Below are positions 8,922 through 31,516 of a DNA stretch of 64,000 bases, piece after piece. The notes beneath the pieces were generated by a model that was not told where the DNA came from, did no database searches, and saw only the letters and a program-made list of their open reading frames with translations. The position numbers and the translations under genes are program-made. Source of the stretch: Aquabacterium commune (lineage in GTDB: Bacteria; Pseudomonadota; Gammaproteobacteria; Burkholderiales; Burkholderiaceae_C); assembly GCF_004362855.1 (NCBI RefSeq), contig NZ_SNXW01000003.1:310001-374000 (forward strand), in the 5' to 3' direction. Position 1 is the first letter of the stretch. The number at the start of each line of letters is the position of its first letter.

Positions 8922-8940
8922 GTCAGTCAGTCAGTCAGTC
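8922..8940. repeat. short GTCA tetranucleotide repeat
   Basis: GTCA is repeated about 4.5 times in the 50-bp gap between the convergent cheW and permease genes. It overlaps the stop codon of the permease gene, whose stop is the first TGA provided by the repeat on the minus strand. Confidence 0.7.
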
Positions 8941-11544: not shown

Positions 11545-11613
11545 GTGGACCAAGGCGAGGGGACTTGCGCAAAGGGGAGGCACATGATGGCAGCTTTCGC
11601 GCACACTTGCCGC

Positions 11614-13556
<1,943 letters not shown>

Positions 13557-13584: not shown

Positions 13585-14664
13585 TCAGGCCGCCTCAGGC
13601 GCGCGCTCGGGCCGCTGGTGCGCCAGGCGCATCACCTCGGACGGCAGATGGTGTTTGAGCGTGTGGTCGGACCACACCTGGCGCCAGCGCCGCGCGCCGG
13701 GCAGGCCGTTGTAAAGCCCCAGAATGTGGCGGATCACCTGGTGCCAGCGCACCTCGCCGTGCGCCCAGCCTTGGGTGCGTGCCATCTCGCGCTCGACGTA
13801 GGCGACCATCTCGGCCTCGACGGCCTCGCGCGTGAGCGCCTCGCTGCGGGCCGGCTGGCCGAAGAAGAGCTCGTCCCACTCCGACAGGATCCAGGGCGTG
13901 TGGTACGCCGCGCGGCCCACCATGACGCCATCCAGCGCCACGCCGTCGAGCACGGCGCCGGGCTGCAGTTGCGCCAGGCTGGCGGCGTTGTCGGCCAGAC
14001 CGCCGTTGAGCACGATGGTCAGCTGCGGGAAGTCCTGCTTGAGGCGGTGCACCACGTCGTAGCGCAAGGGCGGGATCTCGCGGTTTTCCTTGGGGCTCAG
14101 GCCCTTGAGCCAGGCATTGCGCGCGTGCACGATGAAGACATGGCAGCCGACATCGGCCACCGTGCCCACGAAGTCGCGCACAAAATCGTAAGACTCGCCC
14201 TGGTCGATGCCGATGCGGTGCTTGACCGTGATGGGCACCTTCGGGTCGCCACCGACGGCATCGATCATGGCCTTGACGCAGTCGGCCACCAAGGTGGCCT
14301 CGTTCATCAGGCAGGCGCCAAAGGCACCCCGCTGCACCCGCTCGCTGGGGCAGCCGCAATTGAGGTTGACCTCGTCATACCCCCATTGCTGGGCCAGTTT
14401 CGCGCAGTGGGCCAGGTCGGCGGGCTCGCTGCCACCGAGTTGCAAGGCGACGGGGTGCTCGCGCTCGTCGTAATCCAGGAAACGGTGCATGCCGCCGTGC
14501 ACGATGGCACCGGTGGTCAACATCTCGGTGTAGAGCCGCGCGTGCGGGCTCAGCAGGCGGTGGAAGTAGCGACAGTGTCTGTCAGTCCAGTCGAGCATGG
14601 GTGCCACGCAGGCGCGCCAGGGTGACAAGGTTTCTTCAGGGGGCAAAACAACAGACACGGGCAA
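13585..14664 (-). CDS. dusA: tRNA-dihydrouridine(20/20a) synthase
   Basis: DusA reduces uridine to dihydrouridine in the D loop of tRNA using FMN and NADPH. The 359-residue sequence has VAPMLDWTDRHCRYF at the start, the catalytic Cys in NLNCGCPS, the KHRIGID motif and a GRAAYHTPW phosphate-binding segment, all matching DusA rather than DusB or DusC. The start is uncertain: the frame opens with TTG at 14664 and a GTG two codons later at 14658, and no ATG lies upstream of the conserved core. It marks the left edge of the NRPS/PKS region. Confidence 0.92.
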   Translation of the reverse strand: MPVSVVLPPEETLSPWRACVAPMLDWTDRHCRYFHRLLSPHARLYTEMLTTGAIVHGGMHRFLDYDEREHPVALQLGGSEPADLAHCAKLAQQWGYDEVNLNCGCPSERVQRGAFGACLMNEATLVADCVKAMIDAVGGDPKVPITVKHRIGIDQGESYDFVRDFVGTVADVGCHVFIVHARNAWLKGLSPKENREIPPLRYDVVHRLKQDFPQLTIVLNGGLADNAASLAQLQPGAVLDGVALDGVMVGRAAYHTPWILSEWDELFFGQPARSEALTREAVEAEMVAYVEREMARTQGWAHGEVRWHQVIRHILGLYNGLPGARRWRQVWSDHTLKHHLPSEVMRLAHQRPERAPEAA

Positions 14665-15009: not shown

Positions 15010-18000
15010 ATGACCTCCATTCAACATTTGCCAGGCATGCCACCCGCCGCACATTCCACAAACCCTCTGCCGTTTTGCCAGATTCGCCAGGCACTGCGCC
15101 AGACTGCCGCTCGCCAGCCCGACGCCATCGCACTGGAAGGGCTGGGGGTGTGCTGGACGTACCAGGCCCTGGCAGCGCATGTTTCGCAAAGGCACGATGC
15201 CTGGTTGGCGGCAGGATTGCGCCCCGGCCAGCGCCTGGGCATCGCGGCCACCCGCAGTGCGGACACCATCGTGTCCATCCTGGCGGCCATCGAAGCCGGC
15301 CTGGCTTATGTTCCGCTGGATCTGAGCTACCCCGCCGAGCGCCTGCAAGCCATGTTGCAAGATGCCCAGGTGCGCGCCGTGGTGGGCGAAGCGAGCGCCT
15401 TGCAAAGCTTGCGGGCGCTCGTGCCCGACCTGCCCACCCTGGCCGCCCCCGCGCCGGTGAGCGTCCCGCCTCATGCCGACACGGGTGATCTGGCCTATGT
15501 GCTGTTCACTTCGGGCTCCACAGGGCGCCCCAAAGGCGTGGCCATGGGCTGCCAACCGCTGGCGCACCTGATTGGCTGGCACGTGGCACACCCACGTCTG
15601 GGCCAGGCCGCCCGCACTTTGCAGTTCGCCCCGCTGTCCTTCGACGTCCACTTCCAGGAAATCGCCTCGACCGTGGCCACCGGCGGCACGCTGGTGCTGG
15701 TGTCCGACGAAGCGCGGCGCGACCCGGCCCGGCTGCACCAGGCCCTGGCCGAGATGCAGGTGTCGCGCCTCTACCTGCCCTACGTGGCCCTGCAGATGCT
15801 GGCCCAGGCCGATGCAGAGGCCGTGGCCAGCACCGACGGCGCCCCCCTTCATCTGCAGGACGTCGTGAGCGCCGGCGAGCAATTGCAGATCACCCCCGAC
15901 ATCCGCGCCCTGTTCGCCCGGCAGCACGGTGCCGTGCTGCACAACCATTACGGCCCGACCGAAAGCCACGTCGTCACCGCCCACGAGCTGGCGGGCGATC
16001 CGCAGGCCTGGCCGGACATCCCACCCATCGGGCAAGCGCTGCCACACGTCGCGGTGTGGCTGCGCCCGGTGGCCGACAACAACGGCACCGGTGAAGACGC
16101 CAAGCAGGCCGCCGCCGCGCAAGCAAACACTGTGCAGAACGGCGGCGCCGCGACCGAAGGCGAGCTGCTGCTCGGTGGCGACTGCCTGGCCGCAGGCTAC
16201 CTGGGCCGCGCCGACCTCAGCGGCGAGCGCTTCCTCGACGCCGTGGACGACCACCCCGGCCGCTGGTACGTCACCGGCGACCTGGTGCGCATGGACGCAT
16301 CTGGCGTGTTGACCTACCTCGGCCGCGCCGACCAGCAGCTCAAGGTGGACGGCTTTCGCATCGAACCCGGCGACATCGAACTGGCCCTGATGGCCCACCC
16401 CACGCTTCAGGATGCCGTGGTCACGGCCCCGCAGGATGCCGATGGCAGCCGCGTTCTCACGGCACACGTGGTGCTGCGCCCCGGCGCTCAGGCCGATGCC
16501 AGCGCACCGCCGGTGGCCGAATGGCGCCACTGGCTGCGCAGCCGTGTGCCCGAGTACATGATCCCGGTGCGCTTCGCCGTGCTGGCGCGCCTGCCCACCA
16601 CACCGAGCGGCAAGATCGACCGGCGCGGGCTGCCGCCGGTGGCCCTGAACACGCATGCCGGCACGCAAGCAGGCACCTCGCTGCCGCAGAGCGCCAATGC
16701 GGCGGGCCGCCCTGGCGACGTGATCCGCGCCGTCTGGCAAGAACTGCTGGGCCTGCCCCAGCTGGACGACGACGCGCAGCTGTTCGACTTGGGCGCGCGC
16801 TCCCTGATGGTGATGCGCTTTGTGGCCCGCATGAAAGAAGCTGGCATCAAGCTCAGCGTGGCCGACGTCTATGACCGACCCAGCGTCTCAGGCCTGACCG
16901 CGCTGGCCACGCGCGGATCTGGCCCCAGCGCTGCAACGCGCAAGGCGGGCGGACAGGTGGGCGGACAAGCGGGCGGACACACCGGCGAAGGCATGGCCAT
17001 CGTCGGCATGGCCGTGCGCGTGGACGATGCGCATGACCTCGACACCTTCTGGCAGCACCTGCTGGACGGCAAGGAGGCCATCCGCCGTTTCCGCTCTGAA
17101 GACATCGACCCCTCGGTGCCCGAAGCCTTGCGCAGCCAGCCGAACTTCGTGGCGGCGCGCGGTGTGTTGTCGGATGCGGATTGCTTCGACGCCGGCTTCT
17201 TCGGCATCTCCGCCCGAGAAGCCCGCCTGCTGGACCCGCAGCAGCGCATCTTCCTGGAGCTGTGCTGGACGGGCCTGGAGCACGCTGGCATCGACCCCAC
17301 GCGCTCGGCCGACCGCGTCGGCGTGTACGCGGGCGTGGCCAACAACGGCTACCTGCCGGCCATGCGCGCCGAGGACCCGGGCCTGATCGCCCAGGCCGGC
17401 GAGTTCACCACCATGCTGGCCAACGAGAAGGACTACGTGGCCACGCGGGTGGCGCACCGGCTGAACTTCCACGGCCCGGCCGTGGCCGTGCACACGGCGT
17501 GCTCGACCTCGCTGGTGGCCGTGGCCCAGGCCTGGCACGCGCTGGCGCAAGGTCAGTGCGATGTGGCGCTGGCCGGCGGCGTCACCGTGATCGTGCCGCA
17601 AGCCGGTGGCTACCTCCACGTGGAAGGCGGCATGGAATCGGCCGACGGCCGCTGCCGTCCGTTCGACGCGCAGGCCTCGGGCACGGTGTTCGGCAGCGGC
17701 GGTGGCGTGGTGGTGCTCAAGCGCCTGTCGCAGGCCCTGGCCGATGGCGACACGGTGTATGGCGTCATCCAGGGCGTGGGCCTCAACAACGATGGCGGCG
17801 ACAAGGCCAGCTTCACGGCCCCCAGCGTGAGCGGTCAGGCCCAGGCCATCCGCATGGCACTGGCACACGCCGAGGTCGATGCGCGCAGCATCGGCTACGT
17901 CGAAGCGCATGGCACGGGCACGGCCCTGGGCGACCCCATCGAGGTGGCGGCGCTCACGCGGGCCTGGTCCGAGGACACGGCCGACACCGGCTTTTGCCTG

Positions 18001-21000
18001 CTGGGCTCGGTCAAGGGCCATGTCGGTCACCTGGTGGCCGCCGCAGGCGTGCTGGGCCTGATCAAGGCCACGATGGCGCTGCACCGCGAGTGCGTGCCGG
18101 GCACCCTGCACTTCGAGCAGCCCAACCCGCAGATCGATTTCGCCAGCACGCCGTTCCACGTCAGCGCACAGGCGCAGGCCTGGCCACGGGCAGACGCAGG
18201 CGATGCGTCTGGCGCGACGCCGCGCCGGGCCGCCGTGAGCTCCTTCGGGGTGGGCGGCACCAACGCCCATGTGATCGTGCAGGAAGCGCCTGCGGCCGCC
18301 TTGCGCAATGTGCAGGCGCCAGCTGAAACCGATCAGCCCGATCAACCCGCATCGCTGCAGCTGCTGCCGCTGTCGGCCAAGCACCCGGACGCCTTGCGCC
18401 AGCGTGCCGCGGACCTCGCTCGCCACCTGCAAGAGGTGCAACACCGCCAGCCAGCGCTGACGTTGAGCGCGGTGGCGGCCACCCTGATGCGCGGTCGCCA
18501 GGCCATGCCGCTGCGGACATCCGTGGTGGCGTCCACCGTGGCCGAGGCCATTGAAGCGCTGCAGAAGGTGCAAGGGCACAGCACCAGCCTGCGCACGCCG
18601 CGGCTGGTCTTCCTGTTCCCGGGCCAGGGCTCGCAGCACCCCGGCATGGCCCGCGGCCTGTGCGAAGCCTTGCCGGCCTTCCAGGAAGCCTTTGAGCAAT
18701 GCCTGGCCGCAGCGCCCGAGGCTTTGGCACAAACGCTGCGCCACTTGCTCACGCAGGCCAGCCCGGACGATGCCCAGGCAGCGGAGGCGCTGGCCGAAAC
18801 CCGCCATGCGCAGCCGGCCTTGTTCGCCGTGTCCTACGCGCTGGGCGCCTGGCTGGACAGCCTGGGCTTGAAGCCACAGGCCATGATCGGCCACAGCATC
18901 GGTGAATATGCCGCGGCTTGCCATGCCGGCGTGATGGATGTGGGCGATGCCATGCGGGCCGTCATCGCCCGCGGTGAAGCCATGTTCGCGCAACCGGGCG
19001 GCGCGATGCTGGCCGTTCGCACGGACGCCAACACCCTGACAGCCTTGCTGCCCGCCACGGTGGACATCGCCGCGCTGAACGCGCCGCAGCTCACGGTGAT
19101 CGCTGGGCCGCATGCCGACATCGCGGCAGTGGCCACCACGCTGGAAGCGCGCGACATCGGCGTGACGCGCCTGAAGGTCTCCCATGCCTTCCACAGCGCG
19201 TCCATGGACGGCGCACTGCCGCGCGTGCACGCCGCACTGGCCCAGGCACGCTTGCAGCCGCCCCAGGTCACGGTGTATTCGTGCATCAGCGGCGCGCCTT
19301 TGCGTGCGGACGAAGCCATCGATCCTGGCTACTGGGCCCGCCAGGTGCGCGCCCCCGTGGCCTTCAGCCGCGCCGTGCTGGCCGAGCAGGCTCAGGGCCA
19401 GACGGTGTTCGTCGAGGTCGGCCCCGGCCAGGCCCTCACGGCCCTGCTGCGGCAACACCGCGATGGCAGCGCCCCCCCCTCGCCCACCGTGCCGCTGCTG
19501 AGCTCGGCCCAAGCGGCGGTCCAGAGCACCACCCAGGGCACCGTCCGAAGCACCCACGAGCCGGCTCGCCATGCCATGCAGGCGCTGGGCCAGTTGTGGG
19601 CCATCGGCGCCGACATCGCCTGGCCTGTGCCAGCGCAAAGCCCCCGCCTGGCTTTGCCAAGCTACCCCTTCCGACGCGACGTGCACTGGTTCACCCGCAG
19701 TGCCGCCGCCACAGCACACATCTCCCCATCCTCCAGCCCCTCTCTGCCGCTTGCCATGAACAGACTGCCCCGCATCGAGCAAGAAATCGCCCGCATCCTC
19801 AGTGAGGTGGCCGGCCTGCCGCCGGAGTCCGCCCAGCGCGACGCCACCTTCGTGGACCTGGGGCTGGATTCGCTGTCACTGACCCAGGCAACCCTGGAGT
19901 TCGAAAAGACCTTCGGCATCAAGCTGCGCTTCCGCCGCCTGCTGGAAGACCTGGACACCCTGGCCAAGCTGGCCACTTTCTTCGATGGCCAGTTGCCTGC
20001 GGACCGGTTCGCGCCGCCAGCTGCGGTGGCCTTCACAGCACCCGCGGCACCTTTGGCACCTGTGCCTGTCGCTGCGGCCATGCCTGCGGCCGGCGACAAC
20101 GCTTTGCAGCAGCTGATTCAGCAGCAAATGCAGCTCATGTCGCAGCAGCTGGCCTTGATGTCTGGGCAAGCTGCCGTGCAGCCTCATACCGCAGTACCTG
20201 CCCCAGTGCCTGCCACCTTGGCCCAGGCCGCCCCCCCGGCGCTTGTCGCGCCAGCCCACGCTGAGCAACCCGGCAAGAACGCCCTGCTGGAGAAGCCCTT
20301 CGGCGCATCTGCACGCATCGTGCTGAGCGCGCAGAACGATGTCACGCCCGCACAGCAGCAATGGATCGATGACTTCATCCAGCGCTACAACGCGCGCACC
20401 GGCCGCTCCAAGGCCTTCAGCCAGGCGCACCGCAAGGTGATGTCCGACCCGCGCGTGGTGACCGGCTTCAACCCGCTGTGGAAGGACCTGGTCTATCCCA
20501 TCGTGGCCGACCGCTCCGAGGGCGCCCGCATCTGGGACATCGATGGCAACGCGTACATCGACCTGCTGTCCTGCTTCGGCGCGAACCTGCTGGGCTACAA
20601 GCCCGCCGAGGTCACGCAGGCCATGATCGAGCAGCTACAGCGCGGCATCGAAGTGGGCCCGCAGCACCCCATGGCCGCCGAGGTGGCCCAGCTCATCTCC
20701 GACCTGACCGGCATGGAGCGCGTGGCCTTCTGCAACACCGGCTCCGAAGCCGTGATGGGCGCCATGCGCATGGCCCGCACGGTCACGGGTCGCAAGAAGA
20801 TCGCCATTTTCAACAACAGCTACCACGGCATCTTTGACGAGGTCATCGTGCGCGGCACCAAGCAGCTGCGCTCGCTGTCGGCCGCACCCGGCATCCTGGC
20901 CAACGCGGTGGAAAACATCCTGGTGCTGGACTACGACAGCACCGAATCGCTGGAGGTGCTGCGCCAATGTGCACACGAGCTGGCGGCCATCATGATCGAG

Positions 21001-24000
21001 CCGATCCAGAACAAATACCCGACGCTGCAGCCCACCGCGTTCGTCAAGCAACTGCGCGAAATCGCCACGCAAGGCGGCGCGGCGCTGATCTTCGACGAGG
21101 TGGTGACGGGCTTCCGCGTGGCCCCGGGCGGCGCCCAGGAGTTCTACGGCGTGCGCGCCGACATCGCCACCTACGGCAAGATCATCGGTGGTGGCCTGCC
21201 CTTCGCCGCAATCGCCGGTGGCAGCCTGTGGATGGACGCGCTGGACGGCGGCCACTGGCAGTACGGCGACGACTCCTACCCCGAAGCGGGCGTGACCTAC
21301 TTCGCCGGCACCTTCGTGCGCCACCCGCTGGCCCTGGCCGCGGCACGCGCCACGCTGCAGCACCTGAAACGCGGCGGGCATGCGCTGTACCAGACGCTCA
21401 ACGCACGCACACAGCGCATGGCCGACAAGCTGAATGCCGCGTTCGCTGCACGCAACGCGCCGGTCAAGGCCGTGCACTGTGCCACGCTGTGGCGGCTGTC
21501 CTGGGACGACAACACCCGCCACATCAGCCTGTTCTATTACCTGGCGCGGTTCCACGGCCTGCACCTGTACGAGCAATTCGGCCACTTCGTGACCGAGGCG
21601 ATGAGCGACGCCGACACCGACCTCATCGCCGACACCTTCATCCGCGTGCTCGACGAGTTGATGGCGCAGGGCTTGATCGCAGCCCGCGAGGGTGGCGTCC
21701 CGCTGGCGCACACTTCGACTTCGACTTCGATCTCGACCTCGGCCTCGGCCACATCCTCGGCCCTGGCGCCAGGGCAGACCGAGCGCTGGCTGGCCGCCAT
21801 GTACGACCCGGCGGCACGCCTGGCCCTCAATGAATCTTTCTGCGTGACCTTGAAAGGCCAGGTGAATGCCGCGGCGCTCAAGCAAGCACTGCAGGACGTG
21901 CTGCAACGCCACGATGCCTTCAAGCTGAGTTTCGACCTGGACCAGCCCCGCCAGACGCGCCATGCAGACACCCAGGTGCCCATTGCCGAAATCGATCTGC
22001 GGGCCTGGCCCGACGGCGATCAGGCCCTTGACCAGCACGCCTGGCAGGCCAGCGCCACCGACTTCCCCCTCGACCAGGCGCCGCTGGCGCGCGCCAGCAT
22101 CCTGAGCCTGGCCGATGGTCGCGTGGTGGTGCACGTCGTGGCCAGCCACCTGGTCTTCGATGGCTGGGCCTCCAGCGTGTTCAATGCCGAATTGGCCCAG
22201 GCCTACCGCGCCCGCAGCCAAGGCCAAGCGCCACAATGGTCACCCGCCGCATCGCCTCTGCAGTTCGCCGACGCCGAGCATGCCCGCTTTGCTGGTGCCG
22301 ATGGCCAAGCCAGTGTGAGCCACTGGAAACAGGTGCTCCAGGACTTGCCACCCGCCGTGGCGCTGGGCGACCGGGCTCCGACCGGGCCGCGCACCTTCGC
22401 AGCCGACACCGTTCGCGCCCGCATTGACGGGACTGCGCTGCTGCAACTCAAGGCACAGGCCAAGGCCCACGACGCCACTTTGTTCCAGTGGCTGCTGCAA
22501 TCCGTGGCGGACTTCATCGCCCAGGAAAGCGGCCAAAGGGACATCGTGGTCAGCATCCCATATGCCGCCCAAAGCCTGGCGCGCCATGCCCCGCTGCTGG
22601 CCGATGGGGTGCTGGACCTGCCATTGCGCCTGCAGACGCGTGAGGGCGAATCCGTCAGCGAGCGCGTGCGCCGCACCAAAGGCGCGCTGATGGACGCCAT
22701 GGACCACCCGCTGATGACGCAAGGCACAGCCGCCCGTGCGCTCGGTCTGCAAGCCGAGGGCAGCCGCCCGGCCCTCACGTCGATCTACTTCAATCTCAAC
22801 CCCAAGGTCGATCTGTCGGCCTGGGCGCCCCTGGAAGCGACCATGCACGAAGGCCGCAAACGCGGCCTGCTGAGCGAGGTTTTCTTCAATTTCTATGAGC
22901 AGCCCGATGCGCTGACACTCGACCTGCACCACAGCACCGAGTACCTGAGCCCGGCCCGCGCACAGGCACTGGTGGACCGGCTGATGGACCTGCTGGCACC
23001 GGCAAACGCCAGCCCTCAGATGGCGCTGGATGCACGCTTGCGCGCATGGAACCAGACCGACCGCGCGCTGGCGAGCCCCGCCCGTGTGGAGGCCTGGTTG
23101 TCGCACCAGGCGCAGCGCTCGCCATCGTCCACCGCCATCGTGACCCACGAAGGCAGCCTCAGCCACCAGGCGCTGGCGTCACAGTCCAACCGCATCGGGC
23201 GCATGCTGCAGAGCCTCGGTGTGGGGCCTGGCCACCGTGTGGGCATCAGCCTGCCACGCGGTCGCCACCTGCTGCCCGCGCTGCTCGGCGTGCTCAAGTC
23301 CGGCGCGGCCTACGTCCCGATGGACCCGGGCTTTCCGGCCGAACGCCTGCAGATGATGGCGCAAGACGCCGCGCTGAGCCGGGTCATCACCCACTCGTCC
23401 TGCGCCCACGCCAGTGGCTTGCCCGACGCCATGCAATTGCAGCTCGACCGCGACGCTGCGCTGCTGGACGCCCTCAGCGACGCCCCGCTGCCCCCACAGA
23501 CCGACGCGGAGGCCCCCGCCTACGTGATCTACACCTCTGGCTCGACCGGGCGCCCCAAGGGCGTGGCCGTGCCTCACCGCGCGGTGTGCAATTTCCTGGC
23601 GTCGATGGCGCGTGAGCCGGGCCTGCAAGCGTCCGACCGCCTGCTCGCTGTCACCACCTTGAGCTTCGACATCGCTGTGCTGGAGCTGTTGCTGCCGCTG
23701 CATGTCGGTGGCACCGTGGTGCTGGCCACACGTGACCAGGCCATGGATGGCGAAGCCTTGATGGCCCTGGCTGCGCAGCAAGGCGTCACCGTCATGCAGG
23801 CCACACCCACCACCTGGCACCTCCTGCTGGACGCAGGCTGGCAGCCACCCCGTGGCTTCCGAGCCCTGGTGGGCGGCGAACCCTTGCCCGCTGCACTGGC
23901 TGCGGCCTTGCTGGCCAAGGGCTGCGACGTCTGGAACATGTACGGCCCGACGGAAACCACCGTGTGGTCCACGCTCTCGCACGTGACCGACCCGGCGGCC

Positions 24001-27000
24001 AAGATCTGCATCGGACGCCCGATCGACAACACCCAGGTCTGGGTCCTTGACGAGGCGCTGCGGCCACTGCCGATCGGCGCCGAGGGCGAGCTCTGCATTG
24101 GCGGCGAGGGCGTCGCACTGGGCTACGACGGGCGCCCGGACCTCACCGCCGAACGCTTCGTGACGCTGCCCTGGGCCCCCGGTGCGAGCCGCCCGGTTTA
24201 CCGCACCGGCGACCTCGGCCGCTGGCGCGAGGACGGTCAACTCGAGCACCTGGGCCGCATGGACTTCCAGGTCAAGATCCGCGGCTACCGCATCGAGCTG
24301 GGCGAAATCGAGGCTCAGCTGGAGCAGCTCGCCGGCGTCTCGCGCGCCGTGGTGGTGGCCCTTGAAATCACACCCGGCGACATGGCCCTGGTCGGCTATG
24401 TCGTGCCTCAGGCTGGCGCGGCACTGGACACCGCCGCGCTGCGCTCGGCCTTGCGCCAGACGCTGCCCGACTACATGGTGCCGCGCACCGTGCTGGCCCT
24501 GCCGACATTGCCCTTGTTGCCCAACAACAAGATCGACCGCAAAGCACTGCCCGTGCCCGCTGCGGCGATTGCGGTCACGGCGGCCGCTGAACCCACACCG
24601 GCGGCCACCGCAAGCACACCGGCCTCGGCCTCGACCTCGACACCGGGCCCGGCTGCGCAAGCCATCGACACGGTCGCCCGTGAGATGGGGCAACTGCTCG
24701 GTCGTGAGCGCCTGGCCGACACGGACCACTTCTTCGAGCAAGGCGGGCACTCGCTGATGGCCGCCAAGCTGTCGGCTTCGCTGGCCAAGGCCCTGGGACA
24801 GCGCCCCGGCCTGCGCCTGATCTTCGACAACCCCACCCCGCGCCAGCTGGGCCAGGCCCTGTGGCAGATGACAGCGTTCCAGCCTGCGGTCACATCGACC
24901 GGCCCGGACACCGCCGACACCATCCCCATCCGGGCAGACCAGTCCACCGCGCCGCTGTCGCAGATGCAAGAGCGCGTCTGGTTCCTCGAGAACCTCACGC
25001 CGGGCACCGTCGTTCACAGCATCCCCACCGGACACCGCCTCCTGGGACCTCTGAATGTGGAAGCCTTCAACCGGGCCTGGCAGCTGCTGGTGCAACGCCA
25101 GAGTGTGTTGCGCACCGTGGTCGAACGGGGGCCTGAGGGCGATGTGCAGCGCATCCTGCCCGAGCTGCCCTTCAGCCTCATCCCCTTCGACGACTTCAGC
25201 CAGCTGCCGCCCGACGAGCGCAAGCCCGCGATGAACAAGGTCATCGCCCAGCTGGTCGAGACGCCCTATGACCTGGAGAAGGGGCCCCTCTTCACCGCCA
25301 GGCTGTTCCGCCTCTCCCCGGATGAGCACGGCCTGCTGTTCCAGGCGCACCACCTGGTCTGGGACGCGTGGTCCTTCGACCTCTTGTACGTGGACCTGCC
25401 CGAGCTCTACAGCGCCTGCCTGGAAGGCCGCGAGCCACACCTGCCGCCCTTGACCGTGAGTTACGGGGACTTCGCCGCCTGGCACAACGCCTGGATGGCC
25501 GGCCCCGAACTGCAGCGCCAGCTGGGCTACTGGCGCGAGCAGCTCACACCCCTGCCGCCACCACTGGCATTCCCGATCGACCACCCGCGGCCGCCCGTGA
25601 TGTCGGGCCGTGGCGGATCCTTCCAGTTCAACCTGGCCAAGGACATCACCGACGCACTGCGCGCCCAAGCCCAGCAGAACGGACGCACGCTCTACATCAC
25701 CTTGCTGGCCGCCTACGCCCTGGCCCTGCACCGCGTGAGCAAGCAGGACGACTTCGTCATCGGCACCCCCGTGCGCGGCCGTGAACAGCCCGCCCTGGAA
25801 CACCTGATGGGCTTCTTCGTCAACATGCTGCCCTTGCGCATGCAGCCGCGTGCCGACATGACGCTGGCCGACTGGCTCGCTGCCGTGCACCGCCAGGTGG
25901 TCGATGCGTTCTCCTACCCCGACGTGCCTTTCGACCACCTCGTGCATGTGATGCAGGTGCCGCGCGACCGCAGCCGCCCGCCCATCCACCAGGTCAGCTT
26001 CTCCTACCAGGACGTGCGCGAACGCACCACCCGCTGGGGCAACGTCGATCACCAGCGCATGCCCACCCCGATGCTGGGCGCAGCCCAGGACCTGGCGCTG
26101 TGGTGCGTTGAAACGCGCAACCACGTCGAGTTCGTCTTCACCTTCAACGCCGATGTGCTGGAGACCGCTTCGGTGGGTCACTTCGCCAAGAGCCTGGAGC
26201 AGCTCCTGCGCGATGTCGTGACCGACCCCGACCGCCCGCTGTCGGGCTACGATTTTTCACCCGGCTCGGTGCAGACCGATGCCACGCCAGCGCTGAACGC
26301 CCCCCCGACCGCACCTGCAGCGGCCGCATCGCCCGCAGCCAAGGGCAGCAGCCTGGAGGAGACGATCGCCGAGGTCTGGCGTGGCCTGCTGGGCTTGCCA
26401 CAGTTCCTGCTGGACGACGACTTCTTCGACCGCGGTGGCCACTCCCTGCTCGTGATGCGGGCGGTGACCCAGATCCGCGCCCGCACCGGCCAGTCGGTGA
26501 CGGTCCACACCATCTTCGACAACCCCACGCCCCGAAAGCTGGCACAAGCCCTGGGCGGGCACGCCGGCGTTTTGCCGACCCCGCCGTCGGACCCAGGCCC
26601 GGTGATTCCGCACCGGCCAGAGCAGGACACGGCCCCGCTGTCGCAGATGCAGCAGCGCGTCTGGTACCTGGAGAACCTGAACCCCCACGGCGTAGCCCAC
26701 AACATCCCGTCCGCCCACCGGCTGATCGGCCCCCTGGACACCGACGCGCTGAATCAGGCCTGGCAACAGCTGGTGACGCGGCAGGCCGCCTTGCGCACGG
26801 TGATCGAGCGCACACCCACCGGCGACCGCCAACGCATCCTGCCCGCACAGGGCGCATCCGCCATCGCGCTGGAAGACTTGAGCGCACTGAGCCAGCATGA
26901 ACGTGAGGCCGCCCTGAACGCTCGGATCGCGGCGCTTTCGCGCGAGCCCTTCGACCTCGAAAAAGGCCCCCTGGTCGCCCTGCGCCTCTTCAAGCTGGGC

Positions 27001-29871
27001 ACGCAAGACCACGTGCTCTTCCTGCTCGTCCACCACCTGATCTGGGACGGCTGGTCCTTCCAGGTCTTCAACGACGAGCTCTCCGAGCTCTACGCCGCCG
27101 CGCTGGCGGGCCGCCCAGCCGAACTGCCCGCCTTGCCGGTCAGCCACGGTGACTTCGCTGCGTGGCACCAGCAATGGATGAGCGGGGAAGAACTGCAACG
27201 CCAGACCGCTTTCTGGCGGGAGCAGTTGACCCCGCTGCCCGCGCCGCTGGCCCTGCCCACCGACCATGTCCGCCCCGCGGTGATGTTGGGTCAAGGTGCT
27301 TCGCTCGTGTTCCGCCTGGACCCTCAGACCACCCAGACGCTCAGGGCTGCAGCGCAAGGCACAGGGCGCACCCTCTTCAGCACCCTGCTGGGCGCCTTCG
27401 GCCTGTTGCTGCACAAACTCACGGGGCAGGACGACCTGGTGATTGGCACCCCGGTCCGCGGTCGTGACCACCCCGAACTGGAGTCGCTGATCGGCTTCTT
27501 CGTCAACACGCTGCCCGTGAGGCTGCGCCCTCGCGCCGACGCGACGGTCGGCGAATGGCTTGCGCAGGTGCAGCGCCATGTGATCGACGCCCTGTCGCAC
27601 CCGGACGTCCCCATGGACCACCTGGTCCGCACACTGCGCCCCCCCCGCGACACCAGCCGTTCGCCGCTGTACCAGGCCCTGTTTTCGTACCAGGACGCCC
27701 GCGAGCGCAGCGCCGCGTGGGGCAACTTGACCCACCAGCGCCACGACACCCCCATGGTCGGTGCCGCCCAGGATCTGGGCCTGTGGTGCGTTGAAACGCC
27801 AGACGACATCGAGTTCACGCTCAGCTACGACACCGGCCTGTTCAGCGAAGCCAGCATCCAGCTCTTTGCCGAGCGCCTGTCAGACCTGCTGCACCGCCTG
27901 GGCAGCCTGACCGACACCCGCGTGCTGCACGTGTCCTTGTCGTCCCAGCGCGAGCTTCAAGCCCTGCGGCAGTGGAACGACACCGCCACCGTGTGGCCCG
28001 AAGCCACCAACCTGGTGGACCTGCTGATGCAGCAACAGCACGCCCACAGCAACGACATCGCCCTGAGCCAAGCCGGCGAACGCCCACTCTCCCACGCGGA
28101 GCTCTGGGCCCGCGCCCAGCAGATCGCCCACCACCTGCGCGCGCAAGGCCTGGGCCGCGGCGACCTGGTTGGCGTCTGCATGCCCCGGTGCCCCGACTTG
28201 CTGACCAGCTTGCTGGGTGTGCTGCTGGCCGGAGCCGCCTACGTGCCGCTGGACCCCCACTACCCGGCAGAGCGCCTGGCCCACATGGCCGAAGATGCCC
28301 GTCTGGCCTGGGTCATCAGCCGCTCAGACGCCGTGCACGCCCTGACATGGCCCCGCGACAAGACCCTGCTGACCGACCTCGACGACCTGCGCATCCAGCA
28401 GCAACCCACCACCGCTGGCGCACCCGATGCTCAGCGCGATGCCACCCTGGTCGATCCCGCCTACGTGATCTACACCTCCGGCTCCACCGGCAAGCCCAAG
28501 GGCGTGGTGGTGCCGCATGGCGCCGTGGTGAACTTCCTGCGCAGCATGGCGCGCGAACCCGGGCTGCAAGCCCGCCAGCGCCTGTTGGCCATCACCACAC
28601 TGAGCTTCGACATCTCGGTCCTGGAACTGCTTCTGCCCTTGATGGTGGGCGCCGAAGTGGTGCTGTGCCGTACCGAGGACACCCGGGCCCCCTTCCTGCT
28701 CAAGGCCCTGCTCGAAGACAACATCGACGTCATGCAGGCCACCCCCAGCACCTGGCATGCCTTGATCGATGCGGGCTGGCGTGGCCACGCCGGCTTCACG
28801 GCCCTGGTCGGTGGGGAAGCACTGTCGGCTCGGCTGGCATCGGACCTGCTGACCCGCAGCCAAGCCGTCTGGAACATGTACGGCCCCACGGAAACCACGG
28901 TGTGGTCCACCTGCTGGCAGGTCAAAAGCCCCGAGCAAGGCGTGCGGATTGGCCAGCCCATTGCCAACACGCAAGTCCACATCCTCGACGCGATGGGCCA
29001 GCCTTGCCCCATCGGCTGCCCGGGCGAGCTCTGCATCGGCGGCGATGGCGTGACCTTGGGCTACCTCTACCGCCCAGAACTCACCGCCGAACGCTTTGTG
29101 CAAGACCCGTTCCAGTCGAAGCCAGGCGCCCGCCTCTACCGCACGGGCGATCTGGCCCGCTGGTGTGCCGACGGCGAACTCGAGCACCTGGGGCGCCTGG
29201 ACCACCAGGTCAAGGTCCGCGGCCACCGCATCGAACTCGGGGAAATCGAAGCGGCGCTGCTTGCCATCCCCGCCCTGTCGCAAGCCGTGGCAGTGACACG
29301 CGAGGACCATCCGGGCGATGTCCGCCTGGTGGCTTACGCCGTGCCCACCGACCGGCAGGCACCCCCTGCAGACACGCAGACCCTGAAGGCGCAGCTCGCC
29401 CTGACCCTGCCGGACCACATGCTGCCCCAGCACATCGTGCTGCTGGACGCGCTGCCCCTGCTGCCCAACGGCAAGGTGGACCGCGCAGCGTTGCCGCGCC
29501 CAGCGGCAGCCCCCGCCAACCACCCGGCGACCGCCGAGTCCAAACGCCATCCAACCACCCCGCTGGCCCAGGCCATGGCCAGCATCTGGCGGGAATTGCT
29601 CGACACCGAAGACGTCGGCCTGGACGACAACTTCTTCAACCTGGGCGGCCATTCCTTGCTGGCCATGCGGGCCGTGACCGAGATCAAGCACCGCACCGGC
29701 GTGACGATCAACGTGCGGCGCTTGATCTTCGAAACCCTTGGACAACTGGCCGCCACCGATGCCCCCGCCACCCTGGCTGATGCGCCAGCTGCGCGCCAGC
29801 CCGAAGCGCCGAGCAGCCCAGCCCGCAGCACCGCCCGAGAAGGCTGGCTCAGCCGATGGCTGGGCCGATGA
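15010..29871 (+). CDS. hybrid NRPS/PKS megasynthase: A-T-KS-AT-ACP-AMT-C-A-T-C-T-C-A-T
   Basis: One 4,953-residue protein. Domains by rough residue range: A1 20-545 (FTSGSTG near 166, K535); T1 570-640 (S598); KS 660-1095 (C831, H967, H1007); AT 1200-1490 (S1296, HAFH 1392-1395, the malonyl-CoA type); ACP 1590-1665 (S1621); class III aminotransferase 1765-2225 (PLP Lys 2057); C1 2245-2660; A2 2685-3185; T2 S3248; C2 3310-3750; T3 S3812; C3 3870-4310; A3 4325-4840; T4 S4882. By comparison with the GrsA pocket, A1 reads D-V-Q-Y-V-A-H-V-V (proline type); A2 and A3 both read D-I-L-Q-L-G-M-V-W (glycine type). The PKS module has no ketoreductase, which fits an aminotransferase acting on a beta-keto thioester as in mycosubtilin synthetase. 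C2-T3 has no A domain and there is no C-terminal thioesterase. Linkers are Ala/Pro/Ser/Thr-rich. The stop overlaps the next gene (ATGA). Confidence 0.95.
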   Translation: MTSIQHLPGMPPAAHSTNPLPFCQIRQALRQTAARQPDAIALEGLGVCWTYQALAAHVSQRHDAWLAAGLRPGQRLGIAATRSADTIVSILAAIEAGLAYVPLDLSYPAERLQAMLQDAQVRAVVGEASALQSLRALVPDLPTLAAPAPVSVPPHADTGDLAYVLFTSGSTGRPKGVAMGCQPLAHLIGWHVAHPRLGQAARTLQFAPLSFDVHFQEIASTVATGGTLVLVSDEARRDPARLHQALAEMQVSRLYLPYVALQMLAQADAEAVASTDGAPLHLQDVVSAGEQLQITPDIRALFARQHGAVLHNHYGPTESHVVTAHELAGDPQAWPDIPPIGQALPHVAVWLRPVADNNGTGEDAKQAAAAQANTVQNGGAATEGELLLGGDCLAAGYLGRADLSGERFLDAVDDHPGRWYVTGDLVRMDASGVLTYLGRADQQLKVDGFRIEPGDIELALMAHPTLQDAVVTAPQDADGSRVLTAHVVLRPGAQADASAPPVAEWRHWLRSRVPEYMIPVRFAVLARLPTTPSGKIDRRGLPPVALNTHAGTQAGTSLPQSANAAGRPGDVIRAVWQELLGLPQLDDDAQLFDLGARSLMVMRFVARMKEAGIKLSVADVYDRPSVSGLTALATRGSGPSAATRKAGGQVGGQAGGHTGEGMAIVGMAVRVDDAHDLDTFWQHLLDGKEAIRRFRSEDIDPSVPEALRSQPNFVAARGVLSDADCFDAGFFGISAREARLLDPQQRIFLELCWTGLEHAGIDPTRSADRVGVYAGVANNGYLPAMRAEDPGLIAQAGEFTTMLANEKDYVATRVAHRLNFHGPAVAVHTACSTSLVAVAQAWHALAQGQCDVALAGGVTVIVPQAGGYLHVEGGMESADGRCRPFDAQASGTVFGSGGGVVVLKRLSQALADGDTVYGVIQGVGLNNDGGDKASFTAPSVSGQAQAIRMALAHAEVDARSIGYVEAHGTGTALGDPIEVAALTRAWSEDTADTGFCLLGSVKGHVGHLVAAAGVLGLIKATMALHRECVPGTLHFEQPNPQIDFASTPFHVSAQAQAWPRADAGDASGATPRRAAVSSFGVGGTNAHVIVQEAPAAALRNVQAPAETDQPDQPASLQLLPLSAKHPDALRQRAADLARHLQEVQHRQPALTLSAVAATLMRGRQAMPLRTSVVASTVAEAIEALQKVQGHSTSLRTPRLVFLFPGQGSQHPGMARGLCEALPAFQEAFEQCLAAAPEALAQTLRHLLTQASPDDAQAAEALAETRHAQPALFAVSYALGAWLDSLGLKPQAMIGHSIGEYAAACHAGVMDVGDAMRAVIARGEAMFAQPGGAMLAVRTDANTLTALLPATVDIAALNAPQLTVIAGPHADIAAVATTLEARDIGVTRLKVSHAFHSASMDGALPRVHAALAQARLQPPQVTVYSCISGAPLRADEAIDPGYWARQVRAPVAFSRAVLAEQAQGQTVFVEVGPGQALTALLRQHRDGSAPPSPTVPLLSSAQAAVQSTTQGTVRSTHEPARHAMQALGQLWAIGADIAWPVPAQSPRLALPSYPFRRDVHWFTRSAAATAHISPSSSPSLPLAMNRLPRIEQEIARILSEVAGLPPESAQRDATFVDLGLDSLSLTQATLEFEKTFGIKLRFRRLLEDLDTLAKLATFFDGQLPADRFAPPAAVAFTAPAAPLAPVPVAAAMPAAGDNALQQLIQQQMQLMSQQLALMSGQAAVQPHTAVPAPVPATLAQAAPPALVAPAHAEQPGKNALLEKPFGASARIVLSAQNDVTPAQQQWIDDFIQRYNARTGRSKAFSQAHRKVMSDPRVVTGFNPLWKDLVYPIVADRSEGARIWDIDGNAYIDLLSCFGANLLGYKPAEVTQAMIEQLQRGIEVGPQHPMAAEVAQLISDLTGMERVAFCNTGSEAVMGAMRMARTVTGRKKIAIFNNSYHGIFDEVIVRGTKQLRSLSAAPGILANAVENILVLDYDSTESLEVLRQCAHELAAIMIEPIQNKYPTLQPTAFVKQLREIATQGGAALIFDEVVTGFRVAPGGAQEFYGVRADIATYGKIIGGGLPFAAIAGGSLWMDALDGGHWQYGDDSYPEAGVTYFAGTFVRHPLALAAARATLQHLKRGGHALYQTLNARTQRMADKLNAAFAARNAPVKAVHCATLWRLSWDDNTRHISLFYYLARFHGLHLYEQFGHFVTEAMSDADTDLIADTFIRVLDELMAQGLIAAREGGVPLAHTSTSTSISTSASATSSALAPGQTERWLAAMYDPAARLALNESFCVTLKGQVNAAALKQALQDVLQRHDAFKLSFDLDQPRQTRHADTQVPIAEIDLRAWPDGDQALDQHAWQASATDFPLDQAPLARASILSLADGRVVVHVVASHLVFDGWASSVFNAELAQAYRARSQGQAPQWSPAASPLQFADAEHARFAGADGQASVSHWKQVLQDLPPAVALGDRAPTGPRTFAADTVRARIDGTALLQLKAQAKAHDATLFQWLLQSVADFIAQESGQRDIVVSIPYAAQSLARHAPLLADGVLDLPLRLQTREGESVSERVRRTKGALMDAMDHPLMTQGTAARALGLQAEGSRPALTSIYFNLNPKVDLSAWAPLEATMHEGRKRGLLSEVFFNFYEQPDALTLDLHHSTEYLSPARAQALVDRLMDLLAPANASPQMALDARLRAWNQTDRALASPARVEAWLSHQAQRSPSSTAIVTHEGSLSHQALASQSNRIGRMLQSLGVGPGHRVGISLPRGRHLLPALLGVLKSGAAYVPMDPGFPAERLQMMAQDAALSRVITHSSCAHASGLPDAMQLQLDRDAALLDALSDAPLPPQTDAEAPAYVIYTSGSTGRPKGVAVPHRAVCNFLASMAREPGLQASDRLLAVTTLSFDIAVLELLLPLHVGGTVVLATRDQAMDGEALMALAAQQGVTVMQATPTTWHLLLDAGWQPPRGFRALVGGEPLPAALAAALLAKGCDVWNMYGPTETTVWSTLSHVTDPAAKICIGRPIDNTQVWVLDEALRPLPIGAEGELCIGGEGVALGYDGRPDLTAERFVTLPWAPGASRPVYRTGDLGRWREDGQLEHLGRMDFQVKIRGYRIELGEIEAQLEQLAGVSRAVVVALEITPGDMALVGYVVPQAGAALDTAALRSALRQTLPDYMVPRTVLALPTLPLLPNNKIDRKALPVPAAAIAVTAAAEPTPAATASTPASASTSTPGPAAQAIDTVAREMGQLLGRERLADTDHFFEQGGHSLMAAKLSASLAKALGQRPGLRLIFDNPTPRQLGQALWQMTAFQPAVTSTGPDTADTIPIRADQSTAPLSQMQERVWFLENLTPGTVVHSIPTGHRLLGPLNVEAFNRAWQLLVQRQSVLRTVVERGPEGDVQRILPELPFSLIPFDDFSQLPPDERKPAMNKVIAQLVETPYDLEKGPLFTARLFRLSPDEHGLLFQAHHLVWDAWSFDLLYVDLPELYSACLEGREPHLPPLTVSYGDFAAWHNAWMAGPELQRQLGYWREQLTPLPPPLAFPIDHPRPPVMSGRGGSFQFNLAKDITDALRAQAQQNGRTLYITLLAAYALALHRVSKQDDFVIGTPVRGREQPALEHLMGFFVNMLPLRMQPRADMTLADWLAAVHRQVVDAFSYPDVPFDHLVHVMQVPRDRSRPPIHQVSFSYQDVRERTTRWGNVDHQRMPTPMLGAAQDLALWCVETRNHVEFVFTFNADVLETASVGHFAKSLEQLLRDVVTDPDRPLSGYDFSPGSVQTDATPALNAPPTAPAAAASPAAKGSSLEETIAEVWRGLLGLPQFLLDDDFFDRGGHSLLVMRAVTQIRARTGQSVTVHTIFDNPTPRKLAQALGGHAGVLPTPPSDPGPVIPHRPEQDTAPLSQMQQRVWYLENLNPHGVAHNIPSAHRLIGPLDTDALNQAWQQLVTRQAALRTVIERTPTGDRQRILPAQGASAIALEDLSALSQHEREAALNARIAALSREPFDLEKGPLVALRLFKLGTQDHVLFLLVHHLIWDGWSFQVFNDELSELYAAALAGRPAELPALPVSHGDFAAWHQQWMSGEELQRQTAFWREQLTPLPAPLALPTDHVRPAVMLGQGASLVFRLDPQTTQTLRAAAQGTGRTLFSTLLGAFGLLLHKLTGQDDLVIGTPVRGRDHPELESLIGFFVNTLPVRLRPRADATVGEWLAQVQRHVIDALSHPDVPMDHLVRTLRPPRDTSRSPLYQALFSYQDARERSAAWGNLTHQRHDTPMVGAAQDLGLWCVETPDDIEFTLSYDTGLFSEASIQLFAERLSDLLHRLGSLTDTRVLHVSLSSQRELQALRQWNDTATVWPEATNLVDLLMQQQHAHSNDIALSQAGERPLSHAELWARAQQIAHHLRAQGLGRGDLVGVCMPRCPDLLTSLLGVLLAGAAYVPLDPHYPAERLAHMAEDARLAWVISRSDAVHALTWPRDKTLLTDLDDLRIQQQPTTAGAPDAQRDATLVDPAYVIYTSGSTGKPKGVVVPHGAVVNFLRSMAREPGLQARQRLLAITTLSFDISVLELLLPLMVGAEVVLCRTEDTRAPFLLKALLEDNIDVMQATPSTWHALIDAGWRGHAGFTALVGGEALSARLASDLLTRSQAVWNMYGPTETTVWSTCWQVKSPEQGVRIGQPIANTQVHILDAMGQPCPIGCPGELCIGGDGVTLGYLYRPELTAERFVQDPFQSKPGARLYRTGDLARWCADGELEHLGRLDHQVKVRGHRIELGEIEAALLAIPALSQAVAVTREDHPGDVRLVAYAVPTDRQAPPADTQTLKAQLALTLPDHMLPQHIVLLDALPLLPNGKVDRAALPRPAAAPANHPATAESKRHPTTPLAQAMASIWRELLDTEDVGLDDNFFNLGGHSLLAMRAVTEIKHRTGVTINVRRLIFETLGQLAATDAPATLADAPAARQPEAPSSPARSTAREGWLSRWLGR

Positions 29872-30680
29872 GCGCGTTTGACATGACACCCTTTTTTTTC
29901 GGCCCCACGGAGCGTCGGCTCTATGGTGTGTACCACCCGCCCGCCCCCGCCCAACGCACAGCACAGCAAGTGCTCCTGTGCCCGCCCTTCGGCCAAGAGG
30001 CCGTCCGGGTCCAGCTGCTGCACCGTTTGCTGGCGGATCAACTCGCACGCCAAGGCATCCACGTGATGCGCTTTGACTACCACGGCACGGGAGAGTCAGC
30101 GGGTGCCGACGCCGATGCCACCCTGACCGAGTGGTGCGATGACATCCTCACGGCCCACGACGAACTGAGCCGGCGCACCCGTGCGCACAGCACCACCTGG
30201 CTGGGCAGCCGCCTCGGGGGCACCCTGGCCATGATGGCATCCAGCATGGGCAAGGGCACACCAGAGCGCATCGTGCTGTGGGAGCCCATCCTGGACGGCC
30301 CACGCTACCTCCATGAATTGGGCAAGGCCCACGCTCAACACAGCTTTTCACCGTTCATCCATGCCCAACGTCCTGCCGAGCAGGTGAAAGACGAAGTCCT
30401 GGGCTTCGCGGTCAGCGAAACATGGATCCGGCAACTGCAAGCCGTGGGAGCGGCGCAGCTGAACCCGACCTGCGCCGAGGTCTGCGTGCACATTGCCTCA
30501 CAGGAGGGTGCAGTCACCCTGGGCCTGGCCAAGCGCTTGCAAGCCCGAGGCGTGGCGTGGCAGCACCTGAACACGCCGACCCGCATCGACTGGTTCCAGG
30601 AGGAAGCCAGGGGAAGCACTGTCGCACCACCTGAACTGCTGCGCCTGCTCGCATTTGCTGCCACGGGAGCTGCGGCATGA
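29868..30680 (+). CDS. alpha/beta-hydrolase-fold protein with Arg at the nucleophile position (exosortase hydrolase-2-like)
   Basis: A 270-residue alpha/beta-hydrolase-like protein. An oxyanion-strand region (VLLCPPFGQE), a FDYHGTGES segment and a nucleophile-elbow-like GSRLGG are visible. Aligning the last with GxSxGG puts Arg115 where the catalytic Ser should be. From memory, the same GxRxG signature occurs in hydrolase 2 of the exosortase A (PEP-CTERM) gene sets (TIGR03101-like). It may therefore be a non-classical enzyme or a scaffold. Its start overlaps the megasynthase stop and its end overlaps the next gene, both as ATGA, so all three are tightly coupled. Given the missing thioesterase, a role in product release or editing is an inference. 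Confidence 0.7.
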   Translation: MSAFDMTPFFFGPTERRLYGVYHPPAPAQRTAQQVLLCPPFGQEAVRVQLLHRLLADQLARQGIHVMRFDYHGTGESAGADADATLTEWCDDILTAHDELSRRTRAHSTTWLGSRLGGTLAMMASSMGKGTPERIVLWEPILDGPRYLHELGKAHAQHSFSPFIHAQRPAEQVKDEVLGFAVSETWIRQLQAVGAAQLNPTCAEVCVHIASQEGAVTLGLAKRLQARGVAWQHLNTPTRIDWFQEEARGSTVAPPELLRLLAFAATGAAA

Positions 30681-31516
30681 CCGAACACATCCTGAGCTTC
30701 GGCCCCGCCAACCGCCTGGTGGGCACGCTCATCCAACCGACCGGAGAGCCCCGCGCCACAGCCATCCTGCTGCTCAATGCGGGCGTGATCCCGCGCATGG
30801 GACCACACCGCATCAACGTCAAACTGGCACGCGAACTGGCATCGCAGGGCTTCACCGTGCTGCGCATGGACCTGTCAGGGCTGGGTGACAGCCTGCCCAG
30901 CGATGCGGCGCTCACCTTCGAGCAACAGGCCGTGTCCGACCTGAAGGCCGCCATGGACCACTTGCAGCGCCTCACATCCGTCCAGCAATTTGCGCTGGCC
31001 GGCATTTGCTCTGGAGCCCACCACGGCATTGCCGCGGCCATTGCCGACGAGCGCCTCAAGGCCCTGTGGCTCATGGACACCCATGCCTACCCGACGCGCA
31101 AAACACTGTGGGTGCGCGCGCGCCGCCAGTTGCAGCTGGATTTCACCGGCACCCTGGCACGCTGGACAAAGAAGGCTGCGCAGTTGCTCACCTCGCGCCT
31201 GCGCCCTGCCCCCACGGCACAGCGTGAGCAGGCTTTGCTCAACGACAATGCCTACCCCACGCCACCCAAAGCCGAGTTCGCACAGCGCATCCAGGCGCTG
31301 ATCGACCGGCAGGTTCGCCTGCAACTGGTGTACTCCGGCGACATGTTCTGGCGCTACAACCACGACAGCCAGTGGCGGGATGCGTTCCGCGGCCACGGCG
31401 CCGTCGCCACGGTGCCCTGCGACCTCTTGCCCGACATGGACCACACAGCCACGACCCTGCATGCACAACGCCGATTGATCGGGTCGGTGACCCGGTTTGC
31501 CGCCCTCCTCGCCTGA
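30677..31516 (+). CDS. alpha/beta hydrolase with Cys nucleophile (exosortase hydrolase-1-like)
   Basis: A 279-residue alpha/beta-hydrolase-fold protein. The elbow motif is GICSGA, which places Cys111 at the usual Ser position; His256 in DMDHTAT is the likely catalytic histidine, and LRMDLSGLGDS is typical of the fold. Cys-type elbows occur in exosortase-associated hydrolase 1 proteins (TIGR03100-like) and in some thioesterases of assembly lines. It overlaps the preceding GxRxG gene by four bases, repeating the paired arrangement of hydrolases 1 and 2 in exosortase loci. Acting on a carrier-bound thioester in place of an integral thioesterase is a reasonable inference but not shown by the sequence. 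Confidence 0.72.
   Translation: MTEHILSFGPANRLVGTLIQPTGEPRATAILLLNAGVIPRMGPHRINVKLARELASQGFTVLRMDLSGLGDSLPSDAALTFEQQAVSDLKAAMDHLQRLTSVQQFALAGICSGAHHGIAAAIADERLKALWLMDTHAYPTRKTLWVRARRQLQLDFTGTLARWTKKAAQLLTSRLRPAPTAQREQALLNDNAYPTPPKAEFAQRIQALIDRQVRLQLVYSGDMFWRYNHDSQWRDAFRGHGAVATVPCDLLPDMDHTATTLHAQRRLIGSVTRFAALLA

Follow-up and report, generated by a model that had tools for sequence, protein, structure and literature searches.

The synthetases of the iturin/mycosubtilin family are primed by a fatty-acyl-AMP ligase, and a thioesterase domain ends their assembly line; MycA is fatty-acyl primed, and in microcystin biosynthesis the starter of McyG is a phenylpropanoid. In the consulted sections of PMC9783101, McyE is given as KS-AT-ACP-AMT-C-A-PCP-C, and McyG begins with A-PCP-KS-AT. 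The microginin synthetases (mic) have one PKS module with an AMT before the NRPS modules, octanoate being primed by a separate FAAL and ACP and a beta-amino-alpha-hydroxydecanoate unit being made (excerpts of PMC12250027 and PMC2739229). For CorA, which makes coralinone, the available part of PMC10979478 reports that the PKS part extends a dipeptidyl thioester with malonyl-CoA in vitro.

We analysed a stretch of 64,000 nucleotides of Aquabacterium commune (hereafter the window) from a genome of 4.2 Mb in 39 contigs. The features are listed below from left to right; the domain borders inside the synthetase are approximate, and the counts given for some neighbours refer to 17 fetched genus loci, some of which end early.

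13585..14664, minus strand: dus (tRNA dihydrouridine synthase), left flank, edge of the empty site
15010..29871, plus strand: NRPS/PKS hybrid synthetase, uninterrupted ORF of 4953 aa, A-T-KS-AT-ACP-AMT-C-A-T-C-T-C-A-T
15067..16929, plus strand: A1-T1 loading module, code DVQYVAHVVK (proline)
16972..20004, plus strand: KS-AT-ACP, single malonyl extension, from Pfam and motifs
20347..21669, plus strand: AMT, class-III PLP aminotransferase, relative of the MycA AMT
21757..24909, plus strand: C1-A2-T2, A2 code DILQLGMVWK (glycine type)
24937..26559, plus strand: C2-T3, module without an A domain
26617..29769, plus strand: C3-A3-T4, A3 code DILQLGMVWK (glycine type)
29856..30680, plus strand: hyd1, alpha/beta-hydrolase fold, distant TIGR03101 relative, elbow GSRLG with no Ser or Cys
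30677..31516, plus strand: hyd2, alpha/beta hydrolase, distant TIGR03100 relative, Cys elbow GICSG
31529..32398, plus strand: JmjC/cupin-8 protein, HxD...H kept
32408..33502, minus strand: GDSL/SGNH-like hydrolase, in 10 of 17 genus loci
33617..34414, plus strand: methyltransferase of the TIGR04325 family (173.9 bits, cut-off 80), in 8 of 17 genus loci
34414..35109, plus strand: 4'-phosphopantetheinyl transferase, in 15 of 17 genus loci
35130..36272, minus strand: enoyl-CoA hydratase/isomerase family protein, right flank, edge of the empty site

The domain order was established from Pfam and from segment searches, and it agrees with the initial annotation, which had placed all 14 domains in one gene and had seen no thioesterase. 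In fact, Pfam finds in the open frame three AMP-binding, three Condensation and five PP-binding domains, the N- and C-terminal parts of the KS, an AT and an Aminotran_3, and no thioesterase domain in the 4953 residues. The core motifs, all of which had been said to be present, were indeed found: TACSTS, EAHGTGT and KGHVGH in the KS, GHSIG with HAFH in the AT (the latter presumably marking a malonyl type), YGKIIGGG around the PLP lysine of the AMT, three copies of the A core TSGSTGxPKG and all five carrier serines, with an intact motif in T3. That claim stops short in one module, in which a T follows directly after C2, with no A domain between. The condensation motifs read SHLVFDG in C1, HHLVWDA in C2 and HHLIWDG in C3; the first two are slightly off HHxxxDG, with the second His and the Asp kept in both. 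Within the protein, C2 and C3 are 58% identical, and A2 and A3 54%. A frame or assembly artefact was considered and rejected, since the same 14-domain order recurs in four other genomes (loci L017, L018, L022 and L023). Elsewhere in the window's genome, outside the cluster, a lone short condensation-domain match of 36.5 bits was seen in a 488-aa frame (G000:C5:6601-6975, L004).

The substrate codes were read from a MAFFT alignment, at what we take to be the GrsA positions. The code of A1, DVQYVAHVVK, has Asp at position 235 and bears out the amino-acid priming by an integral A-T pair that had been proposed at the outset. This code is tabulated as Pro in the consulted part of PMC9113097, and the identical codes of A2 and A3, DILQLGMVWK, differ by one residue from the DILQLGMIWK of Gly domains in PMC12283262; the related DILQLGVI is assigned to Gly in PMC5466765 (both papers seen in excerpt). 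Such codes predict substrates imperfectly. The Pro-type A1 code was found in all 16 genus loci with a readable A1. The first A domain after the AMT is more variable, with DILQLGMVWK in 11 of 17 genus loci, a code that we assume to be Ser-type in four and DMPQMGLVYK in two; outside the genus, a DILQ-type code occupies this position in 38 of 66 loci, among the matches listed.

The AMT is related to that of mycosubtilin, in line with the initial annotation, which had likened the middle part (KS-AT-ACP-AMT-C-A) to the mycosubtilin/iturin synthetases: it aligns with the MycA AMT (PDB 6kfm) with 398 bits over residues 5-452 of 466. It is a PLP class-III enzyme fused between an ACP and a C domain, the position found in beta-amino-acid-forming PKS/NRPS hybrids, and the synthetase would be expected to work like the beta-amination modules of McyE, MycA and microginin. 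MycA shares with it the beta-transamination before C-A-T and the homologous AMT; however, MycA is fatty-acyl primed, whereas in the window an A-T pair loads an amino acid, judging by its code. Where the iturin/mycosubtilin family has its ligase, the synthetase has an A1 with a proline code, and in place of a terminal thioesterase there are hydrolase-fold proteins in the neighbouring genes. With the microginin synthetases it has in common the one PKS-AMT module ahead of the NRPS modules, but its starter is an integral amino-acid A-T instead of the octanoate FAAL and ACP. Since amino-acid priming is at odds with the starter of both families, we place the synthetase outside them. In microcystin synthesis the starter and the AMT module lie on separate proteins (McyG and McyE) with more PKS modules between, whereas here they are in one protein, and the phenylpropanoid of McyG contrasts with the proline predicted from the code. 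CorA is, like the synthetase, a single NRPS/PKS protein, but its order, A-T-C-A-T-KS-AT-ACP-TE, is missing the AMT, and the beta-keto acid decarboxylates (PMC10979478, in the part available).

The domain order, the codes, the motifs and the conserved neighbours can be read from the sequence itself; from them we infer the chemistry, the loading in trans, the release and the tailoring, in a path that we hold to be probably, though by no means securely, correct. A1-T1 would load L-proline, to which KS-AT-ACP would add one malonyl unit, giving a beta-keto thioester. The AMT, having its PLP lysine motif, is predicted to convert the keto group of this thioester into an amine, leaving on the ACP a 3-amino-3-(pyrrolidin-2-yl)propanoyl unit, that is, a beta,gamma-diamino acid with a vicinal diamine. 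Glycine would then be attached by C1-A2-T2; C2-T3, which has no A domain to activate a residue itself, would add one as well, most likely glycine supplied from A2 or A3, and C3-A3-T4 would attach the final glycine. The product would be a peptide headed by 3-amino-3-(pyrrolidin-2-yl)propanoate, likely released in trans, most probably by the Cys-type hydrolase hyd2 with hyd1 as an apparently non-catalytic partner; the JmjC protein and the methyltransferase may tailor it.

The start of hyd1 overlaps the stop of the synthetase by 16 bases, and both hydrolase genes come after the synthetase in 16 of the 17 genus loci, the JmjC gene in 14. In the clustering of neighbours the biggest clusters were mostly frame shadows of the synthetase, and only clusters of real proteins were used. 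Measured against the exosortase-A pair, hyd1 scores 90.8 bits where TIGR03101 has a cut-off of 202.75, and hyd2 78.8 where TIGR03100 has 168.45; since both are far below, the proposed role in release rests on position and motif. The presumed nucleophile elbow of hyd2 has a Cys in the window, and the same holds for 30 of the 31 further rows aligned (one of which, L040, repeats L031), with GxCSA in place of GxCSG in four; the remaining row, L021, is unreadable there, though tblastn does find hyd2 in that locus. By contrast with this Cys-type partner, the corresponding elbow of hyd1 showed Ser or Cys in none of 30 readable rows. The structural matches of hyd2 are general alpha/beta hydrolases only. 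The JmjC protein is likely an Fe(II)/2-oxoglutarate oxygenase, the HxD and the distal His being present in 23 of 23 aligned rows; a search for a solved relative returned none at E 0.01.

The AMT was found in 19 of 42 genomes of the genus, the window's own included, with identities of 77-100%, and the best 80 of 584 confirmed stretches lie in Bacteroidota, Lysobacterales, Burkholderiales, Rhizobiales, Planctomycetota, Verrucomicrobiota, Acidobacteriota, Myxococcota and cyanobacteria. In an AMT tree of 102 rows, labelled automatically among the matches listed, an A and a KS precede the AMT within one ORF in 66, an A-bearing gene adjoins it in 13, a KS alone is present in seven, the ORF is without a KS in 15 (several of these are cut by contig ends) and one row is MycA. 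The labels are to be read with some caution, as the upstream A of L088 sits in a C-A-T-C-C-T gene, the code of L097 is unreadable and L040 is a repeat of L031. Thus, the architecture, first described as unfamiliar, is not rare as far as its six-domain head is concerned; the exact order of all 14 domains was, among the loci examined, confined to Aquabacterium, and the parts of the open-access literature consulted contain no description of it, the relatives named there being microginin, puwainaphycin, microcystin, coralinone and foxicin. The synthetase belongs to a large, little-studied family, and heads primed by an amino acid are found in further phyla too, with starter codes that vary: among 61 labelled rows outside Aquabacterium (again among the matches listed, with L097 unreadable and L088 doubtful), 20 begin with DVQ, 18 are Val-like and the others are scattered. 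One such code, DAFWLGGTFK, is given as Val in the table consulted from PMC9113097. If the chemistry holds, the head module would supply beta,gamma-diamino acids bearing many different side chains, because the starter code varies so widely across the relatives.

Outside Aquabacterium the family is linked to genes for polysaccharides. In 26 of 41 genomes the best AMT locus has a PF02397 sugar transferase at a distance of at most 50 kb, 2.57 being expected at random places. These genomes, mostly of isolates, were chosen ahead of the result and come from 39 of the 80 named loci (the best 80 of 584 confirmed stretches) together with L034 and L035; each genome entered with its best AMT locus even if it has several, and five weak or second-fragment PF02397 rows, none on a counted AMT contig, were left out. 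As a control we used hemL, present in 37 of the 41 genomes (the four without it are Rhizobiales) and linked in 0 of 37; within 25 kb the figures were 18 of 41 for the AMT and again 0 of 37 for hemL. Other NRPS contigs of the same genomes, collapsed by hand at E up to 1e-70, were linked in 2 of 30 cases, or in 2 of 16 without genome G118, which supplies 14 of the 30 (from 30 listed candidates); one of these control contigs, G081:C20, itself carries a 42% identical AMT. Genes for EPS were recognised beside four of the homologues. The Pseudomarimonas homologue is proline-coded too, and 8 of the 10 adjoining proteins scanned match a family: a UDP-glucose dehydrogenase, a nucleotide-sugar epimerase, a sugar transferase, three glycosyltransferases, a polysaccharide deacetylase and an asparagine-synthase-like protein. 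Beside the homologues from Rhizobium, Dyella and Variovorax, 7 of 10 proteins fit a polysaccharide locus (Poly_export, Wzz with a glycosyltransferase, DegT, a sugar transferase, an epimerase, a UDP-glucose dehydrogenase and Wzc), and three Rhizobium ones do not.

The linkage suggests, at the level of the family, that the diamino peptides end up on an exopolysaccharide or serve in its making, and prompts one to ask if what an NRPS/PKS line makes becomes part of a surface polymer. The suggestion carries less weight for Aquabacterium itself, where the linkage is absent: inspected by hand, none of the 19 carriers has PF02397 within 50 kb, several of the contigs being short. A product that is instead an ordinary diffusible secondary metabolite (a metal binder through the vicinal diamine and the peptide nitrogens, an enzyme inhibitor or an antibiotic), with the linkage elsewhere reflecting islands shared by chance or history, is a serious alternative, which we regard as plausible though somewhat short of probable. 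In its favour are that missing linkage, the location of the Aquabacterium cluster at the dus/enoyl-CoA hydratase site or at another one, and the 15 of the 41 other genomes in which PF02397 is not found within 50 kb (12 have none on the AMT contig, and three have it 142-337 kb away). It accords poorly with the rarity of linkage for the other NRPS contigs of the same genomes and with the lack of a TonB receptor among 20 window proteins scanned, which are part of the window's genes. Beside this last result we note an FtsX-like permease protein of 936 aa at 8935-11745 on the minus strand, beyond dus and add, upstream of the cluster. Combining the polysaccharide linkage with the predicted chemistry, one may imagine a widespread class of NRPS/PKS enzymes making amino-acid-derived vicinal-diamine peptides, which a pair of Cys hydrolase and pseudo-hydrolase would transfer onto exopolysaccharides to give cationic or zwitterionic surface polymers, with the tail serving as a natural unit of exchange at the AMT|C boundary and with our synthetase as the proline-primed Aquabacterium branch; as a whole, this picture is speculative and we consider it unlikely to hold in every part.

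The genomic site was compared by hand across the 19 carriers and 23 non-carriers. The cluster lies between dus and the enoyl-CoA hydratase gene in nine carriers (G000, G026, G041, G023, G028, G016, G001, G033 and G005). In four others (G034, G015, G004 and G013) no more than 40 bases separate these two genes, and a different contig carries the cluster; G039 and G008 resemble them but have gaps of 0.8 and 6.7 kb, and in the last four the site cannot be judged. Among the non-carriers, dus and the hydratase gene are within 170 bases in nine (G017, G022, G012, G029, G037, G007, G040, G025 and G021) and 1.9-11.9 kb apart on one contig in three (G035, G002 and G038); in two they are split between contigs, and for nine there was no match to one or both. 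Repeats of at least 14 bases were found inside neither cluster-edge stretch, each edge taken alone.

An alternative reading concerns the module without an A domain. C2-T3 could be skipped, or be a structural or tailoring platform, and the peptide would then have two glycines and not three; we consider this possible but rather less probable than not. Besides the missing A domain, such a reading is suggested by the slight departure of the C2 motif, HHLVWDA, and by the sister enzymes L024, L025 and L033, which are without T3-C3 and read C-A-T-C-A-T. On the other hand, the serine motif of T3 is intact, and in L022/L023, the one compared pair that shares the window's architecture, no domain has a lower dN/dS than C2 (0.056), a value that a dead module would not show.

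Loading of T3 from another A domain, as in the proposed path, can be viewed beside the fate of the last A domain in the genus, followed in the window and the 17 fetched loci (18 in total). Five have the 14-domain order (the window, L017, L018, L022 and L023) and three read C-A-T-C-A-T with an intact last A. In eight, the stretch of the last A has lost the TSGSTG core, the FDI and the A8 motifs, with weak remnants of other motifs retained in L020; L029 has no A before the last T, and in L019 the last A is unreadable. Decay or loss of the last A is thus seen in 9 of the 17 other loci (8 + 1), and there C and T remain. In pairwise comparisons of dN/dS (Nei-Gojobori, seven pairs, without a significance test), three close pairs gave 0.20-0.25 in the decayed stretch and 0.02-0.17 in the remaining domains compared, and L020/L021 gave 0.98 and 0.22-0.43; in L030/L026 the decayed stretch, at 0.50, is not singled out, A2, whose specificity differs, having 0.64 and C1 0.42. 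Where both members of a pair keep the last A intact (two pairs), that domain had 0.13. The decay of the terminal A with C and T kept and the dN/dS values of the stretch concerned agree with loading by a different A domain, and the loci in which this decay recurs while C and T stay intact form a natural series on which cross-module carrier loading could be tested. In L029 (G030), residues 947-2013 form one C-A-A-T module with a Ser-type and then a Gly-type A, followed by C-T without an A; the C-A-A-T is possibly a recombination intermediate.

The trees of the head (A1 to AMT) and of the tail (C1-A2) are in conflict. The head of L021 groups with L022, L023 and L025, and its tail with L019 and L020; the heads of L031 and L032 group with L026-L028 and L030, and their tails with the window's group. 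AU tests, for groups named after the trees had been seen, reject the swapped groupings (tail, p = 4.7e-5 and 1.4e-9; head, p = 7e-143 and 2.4e-7). Along L021 and L022 the per-window identity is 74-99% to about residue 2200, where the AMT ends, and then drops to 34-68%. Taken together, the conflict, the tests and the drop in identity indicate at least two exchanges at or near the AMT|C1 boundary, and this site of natural tail exchange is a testable joint for assembly-line engineering. The elbow of hyd1 reads GMGLG in the loci with diverged tails (L020, L021, L026-L028 and L030) and GxRLG in the window's group, so that the hydrolase pair seems to travel with the tail.

Finally, an iturin/mycosubtilin-type lipopeptide synthetase primed by a fatty acid, which the kinship of the AMT with MycA and the order KS-AT-ACP-AMT-C-A-T might suggest, is highly improbable, the Pro code of A1 with Asp at position 235 leading us to reject fatty-acyl priming and nearly all the amino-acid-primed rows falling, in a quick AMT tree, into one group apart from MycA and 10 of the 12 cyanobacterial rows. 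That group comprises 88 rows, and the odd A-T-KS row L097 is also outside it. Among the wider relatives of the synthetase, the second gene of the Pedobacter locus L047 showed, when read by eye, a SAM-methyltransferase-like insert within a glycine-type A domain, and split A domains (C-A-A-T) were observed in L045, L056, L063, L076 and L092.
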